This document shows, in pieces, positions 9,772-40,090 of a DNA stretch of 41,170 nt. A program made the translations under genes and the position numbers. The stretch comes from a virus, in IMG/VR virus record IMGVR_UViG_3300033388_001070, positions 1 to 41,170 of that record. One strand, given 5' to 3'. The stretch's first letter is position 1. Each line of letters begins with the position of its first letter. A model generated the notes under the pieces. It searched no databases. It was not told the DNA's origin and worked only from the letters and a program-made list of their open reading frames with translations.

Positions 9772-9774
9772 TTA

Positions 9775-9859
9775 GAAGGCTAGGGCATCGAACCCGAAAA
9801 GCGGAACACCTTGATTCGCCTGCCTTTCAACTATTTCAAGGACTATTGCAAGGAATAGT
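9775..9859 (+). ncRNA. Type A structured leader RNA (A1)
   Basis: An outer stem P1 joins AAGGC and GG (9776-9784, with a UA bulge) to CC-U-GCCUU (9819-9826). Inside is P2 (CGGA 9802-9805 with UUCG 9815-9818), closed by a 9-nt loop ACA+CCUUGA. Loop bases CCUUGA (9809-9814) pair with UCAAGG (9836-9841), making a pseudoknot. Directly after this, ACUAUU (9842-9847) pairs with AAUAGU (9854-9859), holding the AAGGA ribosome site of the HNH gene. The same layout with different bases occurs at 37928-38016. This looks like a leader RNA that controls translation of the endonuclease. Confidence 0.65.
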
Positions 9860-9862
9860 AAT

Positions 9863-10363
9863 ATGAAGAAAATCGACATCAGTACCAAAAAACACCCCTG
9901 TACATTCGCGTTAGTAGATGACAGTGACTATGAAGAATTCAACGCTCACAAGTGGGGCGTACAAGAAGCTCCAACTGGAAAGCTTTATGCTATTCGGAGT
10001 ATTCGTATTGATGGCAAGCGAAGGTTGCTGTACATGCACATCGAAATAATGGGCCGTGTTGCTGGAAAAGAAATCGACCACCAGACCAGCAACACTCTTG
10101 ATAATCAACGGCGTAACCTCCGGCATTGCACACATGCAGAAAATATGAGAAATCGGGGGCCTCAAAGCAATAATAAGTCCGGCTATAAAGGCGTTTATCG
10201 GAATAAAAGTGCTAATCAGTGGCAGTCTTGTATAAGGTTTAACGGAAAAGCAATTCACCTGGGTTTATTCTCTTGCCTCATTAAAGCCGCAAAAGCGTAT
10301 GATAAAGCAGCAAGAAAGCATTTCGGAGAGTTTGCAAGGTTGAATTTTCCTGAAAATAAATAA
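9863..10363 (+). CDS. HNH endonuclease with AP2 DNA-binding domain
   Basis: A 166-residue protein. The HNH core lies at about 58-100: LYMHIEIMG, then GKEIDHQTSNTLDNQRRNLRHCT with catalytic His and Asn, ending ENMRNRG. The AP2/ERF-type DNA-binding domain lies at about 108-160: SGYKGVYRNKSANQW, FNGKAIHLGLF and AAKAYDKAARKHFGEFARLN. Free-standing AP2-HNH proteins are homing-type nucleases of phages. It has its own promoter and type A leader. Confidence 0.9.
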   Translation: MKKIDISTKKHPCTFALVDDSDYEEFNAHKWGVQEAPTGKLYAIRSIRIDGKRRLLYMHIEIMGRVAGKEIDHQTSNTLDNQRRNLRHCTHAENMRNRGPQSNNKSGYKGVYRNKSANQWQSCIRFNGKAIHLGLFSCLIKAAKAYDKAARKHFGEFARLNFPENK

Positions 10364-10421: not shown

Positions 10422-10509
10422 GCCCTTGAAAGCGAGACGCCATTATAATAAAGATCCAAAAGCTTCACAGCGAACTGCTTTCAAGGGCTATCGCAAGTGA
10501 GGCTTTTTT
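10422..10509 (+). ncRNA. Type B pseudoknot RNA (B1)
   Basis: Stem 1 is 12 perfect pairs, GCCCTTGAAAGC (10422-10433) with GCTTTCAAGGGC (10477-10488). Stem 2 is 11 pairs with one G-U, AAAAGCTTCAC (10458-10468) with GTGAGGCTTTT (10497-10507). The two are interleaved, an H-type pseudoknot with an 8-nt spacer TATCGCAA. Stem 2' runs into T6 (10504-10509), so it may also act as an intrinsic terminator. A transcript of about 96 nt from the promoter at 10380-10407 would be a discrete small RNA; read-through would express the gene at 10524. Confidence 0.7.
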
Positions 10510-10523
10510 AATGGAGTGATATA

Positions 10524-10796
10524 ATGAGAGTAATGATACATACTGGCGATGGTTTATATGTCAATGATGAGTGCATTGAGGAGTTATTGTTTCATAAGAT
10601 AGTGCCGTTTGAGTTTATGCCAAGAAAACATGATATAATTATCCTTGATGGTAATGATTTTGAAGTGGAGGTAGTAGTTATTGATATGGATAAGCATAGA
10701 TATGAGATTTACGCTGAATCTACTCGCACTGACAATAAGGCTCAATTTGACGCTACAGGAAAAAGGTATATAGAAAACGGATGGATAGAAGACTAG
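10524..10796 (+). CDS. Hypothetical acidic protein downstream of a pseudoknot RNA
   Basis: A 90-residue beta-rich protein (MRVMIHTGDGLYVNDE..., IIILDGNDFEVEVVVIDMDKHRYEI) with an acidic C-terminus. It was not recognised as a known family. An ATGGAGTGAT site precedes the ATG. Its codon use is more AT-rich than the late genes. Because it has its own promoter and structured RNA, it could be a small moron-like unit. It is too short and unlike ToxN to be a type III toxin. Confidence 0.6.
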   Translation: MRVMIHTGDGLYVNDECIEELLFHKIVPFEFMPRKHDIIILDGNDFEVEVVVIDMDKHRYEIYAESTRTDNKAQFDATGKRYIENGWIED

Positions 10797-36241: not shown

Positions 36242-37432
36242 TTATTTTAGTTTAGACCATAATGTTCTGAATGCCAGTTCTGCGGTGGCTGGCACTACAC
36301 CGTTTCCAAGCAATCGAAGTTCGTCCACCCTGGAGGCAAACCCATCAACTGTTCTACCCATGCCGGATTTAACTGTCCGCGGTTCTTCCCAGTTGTATTG
36401 GGGCTGTCCTGGTCTGGCTGGCCAGCAATCTTGTCTGATAGGCTGTTGGTGTCCGTTCTGCCCGCTGCTTTCAGTGCTTCCGGAGTTCTCGCACCTTTCC
36501 ATTCCCGCTGCGTTGGAGTTGGCCAGTTGTTCGCTTCCGCCTGTGCTTCCTGATACGCTTGGCACATTAACGGGTCTATCTGCTCTCTTAGATTCCCCGG
36601 CCTCGATCGATTCTTTCGCCCTCCGTTGGTCGCTTGGTGTTTCATTGCCTCGTAACTCCTGCTCGGTAGGCAGTCCATTGTGTTCGGTGTCGCCCAATTC
36701 TTCTGATTTCTGGCCGCCCCCACTAAGGTCTGTCCCCGTTTCCCGTCTGGTTCGCTTTCTCCCTGCACCGCTGCGGCAACTGCCGGCGTTGGCCAATTCA
36801 TCTCCACCGCTTGAGGTAGTGTCACGCTGTGCATCGACCCCTCTTTCTGTTGACTGCTCGCTAAGTTCGCTGTAAATCCGTCCGAGACCGTCGCTGTTGG
36901 CCAATTCGCCTTCGCTTGTGCTGACAGACTCTCGAAGCAATGATCGCCCCTGTCGCCCATCCTCGCATTGAATTGAGCTGGGTCCTCGCAAGGCTCTGAT
37001 GCCCTCGGTGTAAGCCAAGATGAATAATCGCTCTCTCTTGTGTGGCGAGCCGACCTCTGCCGCTGTAAACAATCCTGCCTCAACTTTGTAACCCAAATCT
37101 CGAAGGCTTTGTGCGACCTCTTCAAATCCAAGGCTGAGGTGTCCCCCGACGTTTTCAAAGAAGCACCAAAGAGGTCTAATTGTACGGATGTGTTCTTCAA
37201 TATACGGCCATAAGTGTCTAGGGTCGTCTGTTCCGGCTCTTTTTCCGGCGTTTGAGAATGGCTGGCAGGGATAACCGCCAATGATTCCGTGTACTTTGTC
37301 ACGAAAAGGTCGGCCATCGAAGGTTTTAAGATTCGTCCAGATAGGTGCTGCATCCATTTGACCTTGTTCAATCTTTGCAACCAGGTTCGCTGTAGCGAAG
37401 GCTTCGATCTCCACATAAGCGACTGTTCGCAC
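36242..37432 (-). CDS. DNA cytosine-5 methyltransferase, catalytic frame (Dcm-like, motif I missing)
   Basis: A 396-residue frame from a GTG at 37432. It holds motif IV PCQPFS (catalytic Cys56), motif VI FFENV (93-95), motif VIII SPHKRERLF, and the C-terminal motif IX-X block with LRLLGNGVVPATAELAF. The SAM-binding motif I is absent; it lies upstream in the other frame (37456-37506). A -1 shift near 37440 would join them. Between motifs VIII and IX are Ser/Gly-rich repeats (ELANSDGLGR, ELANAGSC, QLANSNAAG) that overlap similar repeats of the second frame. A separate start at GTG has only a weak GGA site. The enzyme could be inactive, or be made by frameshifting. Confidence 0.7.
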   Translation of the reverse strand: MRTVAYVEIEAFATANLVAKIEQGQMDAAPIWTNLKTFDGRPFRDKVHGIIGGYPCQPFSNAGKRAGTDDPRHLWPYIEEHIRTIRPLWCFFENVGGHLSLGFEEVAQSLRDLGYKVEAGLFTAAEVGSPHKRERLFILAYTEGIRALRGPSSIQCEDGRQGRSLLRESVSTSEGELANSDGLGRIYSELSEQSTERGVDAQRDTTSSGGDELANAGSCRSGAGRKRTRRETGTDLSGGGQKSEELGDTEHNGLPTEQELRGNETPSDQRRAKESIEAGESKRADRPVNVPSVSGSTGGSEQLANSNAAGMERCENSGSTESSGQNGHQQPIRQDCWPARPGQPQYNWEEPRTVKSGMGRTVDGFASRVDELRLLGNGVVPATAELAFRTLWSKLK

Positions 37433-37506
37433 ATCAAGATTCCAATTTCAATCCCCCCATAGCCCGTGCAAAATGAGATAATTCTTTGTGTTTCGGGACT
37501 ATCCAC
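36295..37506 (-). CDS. Methyltransferase motif I frame overlapping the Dcm gene in another frame
   Basis: A 403-residue frame starting at a GTG (37506) with AAAGGGGGC upstream. It encodes Dcm motif I (RIISFCTGYGGIEIG) and then stays open through ~1.1 kb that also encodes the Dcm catalytic frame. Its own translation has repeated NWPTP-like units (NWPTATVSD, NWPTPAVAA, NWATPNTMD, NWPTPTQRE) and ends LNPAWVEQLMGLPPGWT. These are segments seen in other phage methyltransferases. So either this is a real overlapping gene, or the frame is only part of a frameshifted gene that once read through. Confidence 0.45.
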   Translation of the reverse strand: MDSPETQRIISFCTGYGGIEIGILMCEQSLMWRSKPSLQRTWLQRLNKVKWMQHLSGRILKPSMADLFVTKYTESLAVIPASHSQTPEKEPEQTTLDTYGRILKNTSVQLDLFGASLKTSGDTSALDLKRSHKAFEIWVTKLRQDCLQRQRSARHTRESDYSSWLTPRASEPCEDPAQFNARMGDRGDHCFESLSAQAKANWPTATVSDGFTANLASSQQKEGSMHSVTLPQAVEMNWPTPAVAAAVQGESEPDGKRGQTLVGAARNQKNWATPNTMDCLPSRSYEAMKHQATNGGRKNRSRPGNLREQIDPLMCQAYQEAQAEANNWPTPTQREWKGARTPEALKAAGRTDTNSLSDKIAGQPDQDSPNTTGKNRGQLNPAWVEQLMGLPPGWTNFDCLETV

Positions 37507-37924
37507 ATTTAGCCCCCTTTCTGATATTTTCAATCGTTCCATCGTGCGTCCAGTGACAACTGCGGCACATGCGTTTGTAGTCTTTCGGGTCTGAGTAATT
37601 CCCTGTTAAATTCGCCCAGTCATAAGTTTTTGACTTATCAGAAGTCCCGCAAACATCGCAATGGCTTGGCTGGTTGGCGTACAATCTCCTATGGCAAGCA
37701 GCATACCCAGCTTCGTCACCTTTCCAGTTGGCGTTCTTAGACCCGAACTGATCCCGCTTGATTGCTTTGCGTGGGATAAGGCCGAAGTGTCTCATGGCGG
37801 TTTGTATGCGTTTCACCGATACTTTAAAAGCTGTTGCGATTTCCCTGTAAGTCATTTTCTTTTCATAATACAATACTTGAAGTGTCGTATTGTCACAGGG
37901 TGGAAAGTAATTATATTTGTTCAT
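37499..37924 (-). CDS. HNH endonuclease with HTH domain, inserted in the Dcm gene
   Basis: A 141-residue protein from the ATG at 37924 (GAGAGG upstream). A helix-turn-helix lies at about 14-52 (YYEKKMTYREIATAFKVSVK). The HNH domain lies at about 85-130: CDVCGTSD, YDWANLTGNYSD with the central His-position neighbour, and MCRSCHWTHDG. It resembles phage homing-type HNH proteins. It sits between two homologous copies of the Dcm 5' end (38048-38114 and 37456-37522), and its own stop lies within the second copy. It has its own promoter and type A leader. Confidence 0.85.
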   Translation of the reverse strand: MNKYNYFPPCDNTTLQVLYYEKKMTYREIATAFKVSVKRIQTAMRHFGLIPRKAIKRDQFGSKNANWKGDEAGYAACHRRLYANQPSHCDVCGTSDKSKTYDWANLTGNYSDPKDYKRMCRSCHWTHDGTIENIRKGAKCG

Positions 37925-37927
37925 TTT

Positions 37928-38016
37928 AATACCTCTCATAGTATTTCTCAGTATAATTATGTATGGCAGGGACGGCTGAGATGTCCGTCTTTTTCGGTCG
38001 CTAAACCTAGCCATAC
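37928..38016 (-). ncRNA. Type A structured leader RNA (A2)
   Basis: Minus strand. P1 pairs GUAUGGC-UA-GG (38016-38006) with CC-U-GCCAUAC (37970-37961). P2 pairs GACGG (37989-37985) with CCGUC (37975-37971) around a 9-nt loop ACA+UCUCAG. Loop bases UCUCAG pair with CUGAGA (37951-37946), a pseudoknot. Directly after it AAUAC (37945-37941) pairs with GUAUU (37932-37928), partly covering the GAGAGG ribosome site. Every element has a counterpart in A1 (9775-9859), with different bases but kept pairing and identical ACA, GGCUAGG and CCUGCC segments. Confidence 0.7.
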
Positions 38017-38018
38017 AG

Positions 38019-38046
38019 AATATAACACATTTCTCAGGAAAGTCAA
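38019..38046 (-). promoter_or_regulatory. Sigma70-type promoter of the inserted HNH gene
   Basis: Minus strand: -35 TTGACT (38046-38041), a 16-bp spacer, and -10 TATATT (38024-38019). Start predicted near 38013, at the first stem of the type A RNA. It begins directly after the duplicated Dcm 5' fragment, so promoter, leader and HNH gene form one unit. Confidence 0.75.
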
Positions 38047-38047
38047 G

Positions 38048-38114
38048 CCCGTATCCGGTACAAAAGCTGATAATTCTTTGTTCTTCGGTATTATCCACAT
38101 CATGCCCACTTTCT
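38048..38114 (-). pseudogene. Displaced 5' end of the cytosine methyltransferase gene
   Basis: These 67 bases match 37456-37522 at 52 positions (about 78 percent). Both copies contain the same ribosome-site region, a GTG start, and codons for D-x-x-E-x-QRIISFCTGYG; many differences are synonymous, so both have evolved as protein code. After GGG the copies differ completely. This is probably the original 5' end of the methyltransferase, cut off by the HNH unit, while the second copy came with the insertion. Confidence 0.7.
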
Positions 38115-39614: not shown

Positions 39615-39737
39615 TTATTTGGACTTTCCAATCTTATTGATTATGACAAAAGTCATCACCACCAGCATCACTTGAATAGCTGTAATGCTCTTGTGGATAT
39701 GTTCCATTTGTTCTATTAGATTTGCTATATCACTCAT
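39615..39737 (-). CDS. Small single-pass membrane protein
   Basis: A 40-residue protein (starts MSDIANLIEQMEHIHK) with one transmembrane segment (VMLVVMTFVIINKIG) and a basic end. The ATG overlaps the previous stop (ATGA). Unknown function. Confidence 0.55.
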   Translation of the reverse strand: MSDIANLIEQMEHIHKSITAIQVMLVVMTFVIINKIGKSK

Positions 39738-39931
39738 TCCATCTCCTTTGCAAAAGCATCTATGGCTTCCCTGACTGATTTGCACGAAACGCCGCCAAGG
39801 TATTCGGCGTCAGAAGTAGAGTGAAGCCTCCACCCTCGGCCAGTTACAGACTTTCGCATAGTGCATACGTCCGAGTACTTATTGTCGGCATGGACTTTTT
39901 CTAAAAAATCAATTCGGTCTTTGTCTGTCAT
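39734..39931 (-). CDS. Small hypothetical protein downstream of a pseudoknot RNA
   Basis: A 65-residue protein (starts MTDKDRIDFLEKVHAD) of a type common in phages, with a central RGWRLHSTSD and a helical end (REAIDAFAKEME). Function unknown. It is the first gene after the promoter and type B RNA at 39953-40090. Confidence 0.6.
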   Translation of the reverse strand: MTDKDRIDFLEKVHADNKYSDVCTMRKSVTGRGWRLHSTSDAEYLGGVSCKSVREAIDAFAKEME

Positions 39932-39952
39932 AATGCTATCTCCCTAAAATGC

Positions 39953-40057
39953 GAACAGTCCCACGAACGATAATCCCAGCTATGAGGTTTTGGGCCGGAG
40001 GAAGCCCGATGTAGTTCGTGAGACTGTTCTTGTTTTTTGGTTTGTACCTCATAGCTG
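39953..40057 (-). ncRNA. Type B pseudoknot RNA (B2)
   Basis: Minus strand. Stem 1 CAGCTATGAGGT (40057-40046) pairs perfectly with ACCTCATAGCTG (39988-39977), 12 bp. Stem 2 (40029-40014) pairs with 39968-39953 over 16 bp with one mismatch (GAACAGTC core). They are interleaved, so this is an H-type pseudoknot; a small GGGC/GCCC hairpin sits in the second loop. The spacer between stem 1' and stem 2' is 8 nt, as in B1. The first base of stem 1 lies at the predicted transcription start. GCATTTTAGGGAG follows, so the U-rich end is weaker than in B1. Confidence 0.7.
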
Positions 40058-40062
40058 CTTAA

Positions 40063-40090
40063 ATTATACCACATCTTTTAACAATGTCAA
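40063..40090 (-). promoter_or_regulatory. Perfect-consensus sigma70 promoter
   Basis: Minus strand: -35 TTGACA (40090-40085), a 16-bp spacer, and -10 TATAAT (40068-40063). Both boxes match the consensus in all positions. It starts one base after the stop of the HNH gene (40092) and drives the type B RNA and the genes after it. Confidence 0.85.

Follow-up and report, generated by a model that had tools for sequence, protein, structure and literature searches.

The window analysed here, a stretch of viral DNA of 41,170 nucleotides, carries a structured RNA directly before an HNH endonuclease gene at positions 37,925-38,046, which raises the question of what this RNA is and what it does for the gene behind it. 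A preliminary description had treated it as the second example (A2) of a separate 'type A RNA', the first (A1) lying elsewhere in the window. Comparison of the window with the whole Rfam library using cmscan gave exactly two matches, A1 (48.7 bits, E 3.2e-7) and A2 (42.5 bits, E 1.3e-5), both to RF02996 (int-alpA), for which the gathering threshold of the covariance model, 35.8 bits, is the membership cut-off. The structured RNA before the HNH gene is a member of an already known family and not a new type; the structure and place described for it stand, the separate type does not. In the alignment to RF02996, the unpaired conserved segments CUAG, CGAAAA and CUG as well as P1, P2 and P3 are all present in A2. 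The A2 locus comprises the following parts.

38019-38046, minus strand: promoter, sigma-70-like, TTGACT (38046-38041), 16 nt, TATATT (38024-38019); from sequence.
37946-38017, minus strand: A2 int-alpA RNA (RF02996), through copy 1; 42.5 bits.
38010-38017, minus strand: P1 5' strand, TGTATGGC; RF02996 alignment and covariation.
37960-37967, minus strand: P1 3' strand, GCCATACA; RF02996 alignment and covariation.
37990-38010, minus strand: conserved core CTAG..CCGAAAA, including P2; RF02996 alignment.
37971-37989, minus strand: P3 hairpin, GACGG-ACATCTCAG-CCGTC, with a 9-nt loop (ACA plus TCTCAG) at 37984-37976.
37946-37951, minus strand: copy 1, CTGAGA, pseudoknot partner of loop TCTCAG; loop permutation test.
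37928-37945, minus strand: P4 hairpin, AATACT-ATGAGA-GGTATT, with the Shine-Dalgarno (SD) sequence in the loop; stem permutation test and MFE fold.
37934-37938, minus strand: copy 2, TGAGA, second match of the loop (TCTCA), overlapping the SD GAGAGG; loop permutation test.
37499-37924, minus strand: HNH endonuclease of 141 aa with HTH N-terminus, phrog_8446; ATG at 37924.

The A1 locus has these parts.

9773-9841, plus strand: A1 int-alpA RNA, with the loop at 9806-9814 and copy 1, TCAAGG, at 9836-9841; 48.7 bits.
9842-9859, plus strand: P4 hairpin, ACTATT-GCAAGG-AATAGT, with copy 2, CAAGG, at 9849-9853; stem permutation test.
9863-10363, plus strand: HNH protein of 166 aa, HNH_3 plus AP2, phrog_99.

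The promoter, P1, the CCGAAAA segment, P3, the 9-nt loop, the pseudoknot arm and the ribosome-site hairpin all lie where the preliminary description had placed them on the minus strand, and sequence comparison agrees with its view that A1 parallels A2 part by part, with pairs that differ yet remain complementary. The A1 loop CCTTGA is complementary to TCAAGG (copy 1), and its CCTTG to CAAGG (copy 2). The MFE fold of A2 recovers P1, P3 and P4 (z -2.6); that of A1 is wrong (z -1.1), because plain MFE folding does not model pseudoknots. A promoter occurs in the matching place in L218, L010, L168, L023, L053, L210 and L216, and in leaders of nuclease genes the own promoter tends to end just 5' of P1. 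Given the position of the promoter, the transcript is predicted to begin with P1, at its 5' end.

Relatives were collected by a pattern scan of IMG/VR, which gave at least 118 stretches, and by further scans including one of GTDB. The patterns fixed the bases adjoining CTAG, plus CTAG, CGAAAA and CCTG, and left the P3 loop and everything downstream free, so that tests on these regions are unbiased by selection. Pattern variants with CG/CG next to CTAG gave no matches. RF02996 was present in 82 of the 99 records checked (44/50 and 38/49); five records without a match to it (L169-L173) hold more distant relatives of the A1-type HNH protein and had been fetched by protein rather than by RNA. The main set consisted of 79 non-redundant leaders. 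Pattern matches were left out if they fell within coding sequence or could be assigned no start codon (L121-L125, L127, L132, L141, L146, L152, L153, L071, L084 and a few more); among them, several are also RF02996-negative, and a few others are RF02996-positive and could be added. A held-out set of 18 leaders was chosen by the Rfam model alone in genomes of one bacterial family, 11 of 30 loci being lost (10 were not parsed automatically and one had no start codon). MAFFT alignments of the leaders were set aside for pair counting, as loops and arms were shifted by 1-3 columns in several rows, and per-leader permutation tests were therefore used instead of column pair counts. Some phages carry more than one int-alpA copy. 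The present window holds two and another contig three, and an 81-kb phage contig (G026, records of L080 and L209-L211) has four, which lie before different genes.

The P3 loop matches two downstream words, copy 1, which is the pseudoknot arm, and copy 2 at the position of the SD. The second complement, which overlaps the SD, was absent from the preliminary description and points to the likely mechanism. Both matches were at least 5 nt long in 63% of the 79 leaders, compared with 5.7% when the loops were exchanged among leaders (sd 2.4, maximum 15%, 400 permutations). In the 18 held-out leaders the corresponding values were 44% and 9%, and 0 of 1000 permutations reached the observed value. This exchange retains pyrimidine-rich loops and purine-rich SD regions, so the excess is not an effect of base composition. 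Complementarity above the permutation controls across unrelated relatives confirms the proposed pseudoknot between loop and arm. Copy 2 usually begins 10-14 nt and ends 4-9 nt 5' of the start codon. In 62 of the 64 two-copy leaders the copies share at least 2 nt of the loop, which makes simultaneous pairing impossible in these leaders. Mean duplex energies were -9.0 kcal/mol for copy 1 and -8.4 kcal/mol for copy 2 (A2: -7.8 and -5.5; A1: -7.5 and -6.7). The words themselves vary widely, with 56 different copy-1 words among 65 leaders, and AGG, GGA and GAG are all absent from 15 of 54 copy-2 words. Some leaders, such as L112, L012 and L041, have one recognisable copy only; two copies are therefore not universal.

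The hairpin at the ribosome site, P4, likewise exceeded the permutation controls across unrelated relatives, as the preliminary description would lead one to expect. A stem of at least 4 pairs surrounded copy 2 in 52% of cases, compared with 18% (sd 4) when the 5' flanks were exchanged, and a stem of at least 5 pairs in 28% compared with 4.6%. The recurrence of P4 around copy 2 places copy 2 in a hairpin loop of its own in A1, A2 and many others. P1 pairs 4-8 covary among the 79 leaders, and the permutation tests reveal covariation in P1, in the loop-arm pairing and in the SD hairpin, which supports the selected RNA structure that had been claimed.

We propose, with a probability of roughly two in three, that A2 is a cis-acting 5' leader that functions as a portable translational switch, its loop pairing with either a decoy or the SD. 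Transcription would begin at P1; P1, P2 and the core CUAG/CGAAAA/CUG would hold P3, whose loop would choose between two words. Pairing with copy 1, just upstream, would form a pseudoknot and leave the ribosome site free, and pairing with copy 2 in the P4 loop would cover the SD. At the sequence level, A2 offers what characterizes a translational riboswitch, namely alternative pairings, one of which covers the SD. We infer that the two pairings correspond to ON and OFF states, the direction being suggested by the location of copy 2 at the ribosome site, and that the balance may be tipped by a ligand, a protein, temperature or the order of folding. As copy 1 is transcribed before copy 2, the order of folding could by itself produce an early burst of translation; binding of a ligand or protein by the conserved core would be an equally possible trigger. 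In A2 the copy-1 pairing is the stronger of the two, and an OFF state would therefore need help.

Three other explanations were weighed against this switch. The loop might pair with copy 1 only, in a static leader that serves mRNA protection or ribosome placement, the copies being alike merely as SD-like words. The somewhat greater average strength of copy 1 and the many CCUCC-like loops would suit such a leader, but the match is lost when loops of like SD-like composition are swapped among leaders, and words such as GGTCTA, GACGGC and TAGCG, none of them an SD word, occur as copy 2; we hold this explanation to be unlikely. We see still less reason to favour an independent, trans-acting sRNA that ends near P1 or copy 1 and whose loop pairs with the ribosome sites of other messages. 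Rfam does type the family as 'Gene; sRNA', and the linker that follows P1, U-rich with 45% U, could terminate transcription in some members. However, the loop is a far poorer fit to the ribosome sites of other leaders than to that of its own gene, nearly every leader is followed by a start codon within roughly 20-60 nt, and neither A1 nor A2 shows a long run of U 3' of P1.

Hairpins at the ribosome-binding site (RBS) have been described for T4 I-TevI, I-TevII, I-TevIII and segB and for Aeh1 mobE (Gibb & Edgell 2007, 2009; reviewed in PMC2988022). Like the present leaders, they fold the RNA around the ribosome site of a phage homing endonuclease gene. Unlike these leaders, each is a simple hairpin that contains a late promoter, with neither a conserved upstream domain nor a duplicated loop complement. 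The least probable of the three explanations is that P4 alone hides the ribosome site in this simple manner, as in T4 I-TevI or Aeh1 mobE, with the int-alpA part as a stabiliser. The enrichment of P4 and the precedent for HNH and GIY-YIG genes (PMC2988022) agree with it, whereas the SD lies mainly in the loop of P4 rather than in its stem, 48% of two-copy leaders have no P4 stem of at least 4 pairs, and the T4 late promoter is found inside the hairpin, while that of A2 is sigma-70-like and lies upstream of P1.

As to the preferred switch, its closest parallels are found among riboswitches. SAM-II is a pseudoknot riboswitch that sequesters the SD. The preQ1 riboswitch classes include SD-sequestering pseudoknots as well (reviewed in PMC11625349). 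In both, as proposed here, a structured domain has a loop that pairs with the region of the ribosome site and blocks translation; int-alpA differs in having no known ligand, an explicit decoy copy, and mobile or phage genes rather than metabolic genes behind it. With the int-alpA family itself, A1 and A2 share the RNA defined by the covariance model, with the core CUAG/CGAAAA/CUG and P1-P3. Copy 2 and P4 are both outside the RF02996 model. Its 3' tail stops at copy 1, and the pseudoknot may therefore have been noticed by those who built the model. The original description of int-alpA is reportedly a NAR paper of 2017. In the literature searched, which did not extend to that description, no account of int-alpA function was found, the family being mentioned by one paper, in a list. 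Four points are, as far as we have checked, new: the loop's two complements, the hairpin at the SD, the breadth of genes behind the leaders and the clean exchange of leaders. An Rfam family typed as sRNA and without a known role now gains a specific, testable mechanism, in which one loop has two rival partners, the ribosome site being one of the two.

The genes behind int-alpA leaders encode HNH proteins of several types, GIY-YIG proteins, TnpB/IS605 OrfB, Rha, KilA-N, AntA and other antirepressors, replication initiation proteins, primase and methyltransferases. In L211 and L217 the leader lies directly before TnpB/IS605 OrfB; the word at the SD position of L217 is GGTCTAG, which is not SD-like. 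Canonical E. coli loci have the RNA, with both copies, immediately upstream of the gene that comes first after the integrase. In L178 (E. coli Ec1120, 2501-2624), an unrelated insertion-element-like sequence follows copy 1 immediately and takes the place of copy 2 and the ribosome site. A1 and A2 precede HNH genes and do not lie between integrase and AlpA, the location that gave the family its name; most relatives are likewise found outside this context, which is no part of the RF02996 model.

The two HNH proteins of the window belong to different subfamilies, as had been stated, and are 18% identical. From the -35 box to the ATG, the leader of L218 is 92% identical to that of A2, while their proteins share 17% identity. 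What follows the L218 leader is an A1-type protein, 56% identical to that of A1, whereas the leaders of L218 and A1 are only 62% identical. A peptide pattern scan of IMG/VR yielded no relatives of the A2 HNH protein. Near-identical leaders before unrelated HNH proteins imply that leader and gene move separately, which supports the earlier suggestion that the leader travels on its own. It is a clear example of a regulatory RNA that passes from gene to gene, and one mobile leader is common to homing endonuclease, TnpB, antirepressor and replication genes of many phages. A wider reading, possible but in our judgement doubtful, is that int-alpA is an orphan riboswitch-like sensor, shared as a portable cassette by selfish nucleases (HNH, GIY-YIG, TnpB) as well as by phages and prophages. 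Its core would sense a host or infection signal and shift the P3 loop between decoy and ribosome site, thus timing nucleases, antirepressors and replication proteins. If the core does sense a signal, int-alpA would constitute a virus-borne class of switches whose trigger could be searched for directly.

The A2 RNA and its HNH gene are flanked by two copies of a methyltransferase N-terminus, at 38098-38029 and 37506-37437 (minus strand), which are about 77% identical. They belong to the following features.

38029-38098, minus strand: first methyltransferase N-terminal copy, interrupted by the unit of promoter, RNA and HNH gene.
36242-37506, minus strand: C5 DNA methyltransferase, second N-terminal copy (GTG at 37506) and body (ORF from 37432), in different frames in this record.

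Phage C75C1 has a related methyltransferase gene that is uninterrupted. The duplicated N-terminus would fit a homing event that imported a diverged 5' end.

Two other structured leaders were observed in the window, neither of which has a match in Rfam. One, at 10426-10545 (plus strand), has a 12-bp stem, GCCCTTGAAAGC/GCTTTCAAGGGC, and a promoter, TTGACT-16-TATAAT, before a 90-aa ORF. The other, at 39929-40065 (minus strand), is a long stem, GAACAGTCTCACGAAC/GTTCGTGGGACTGTTC, around a hairpin with the anti-SD-like loop UUCCUCC (MFE -42 kcal/mol), and precedes a 65-aa ORF at 39734-39931.
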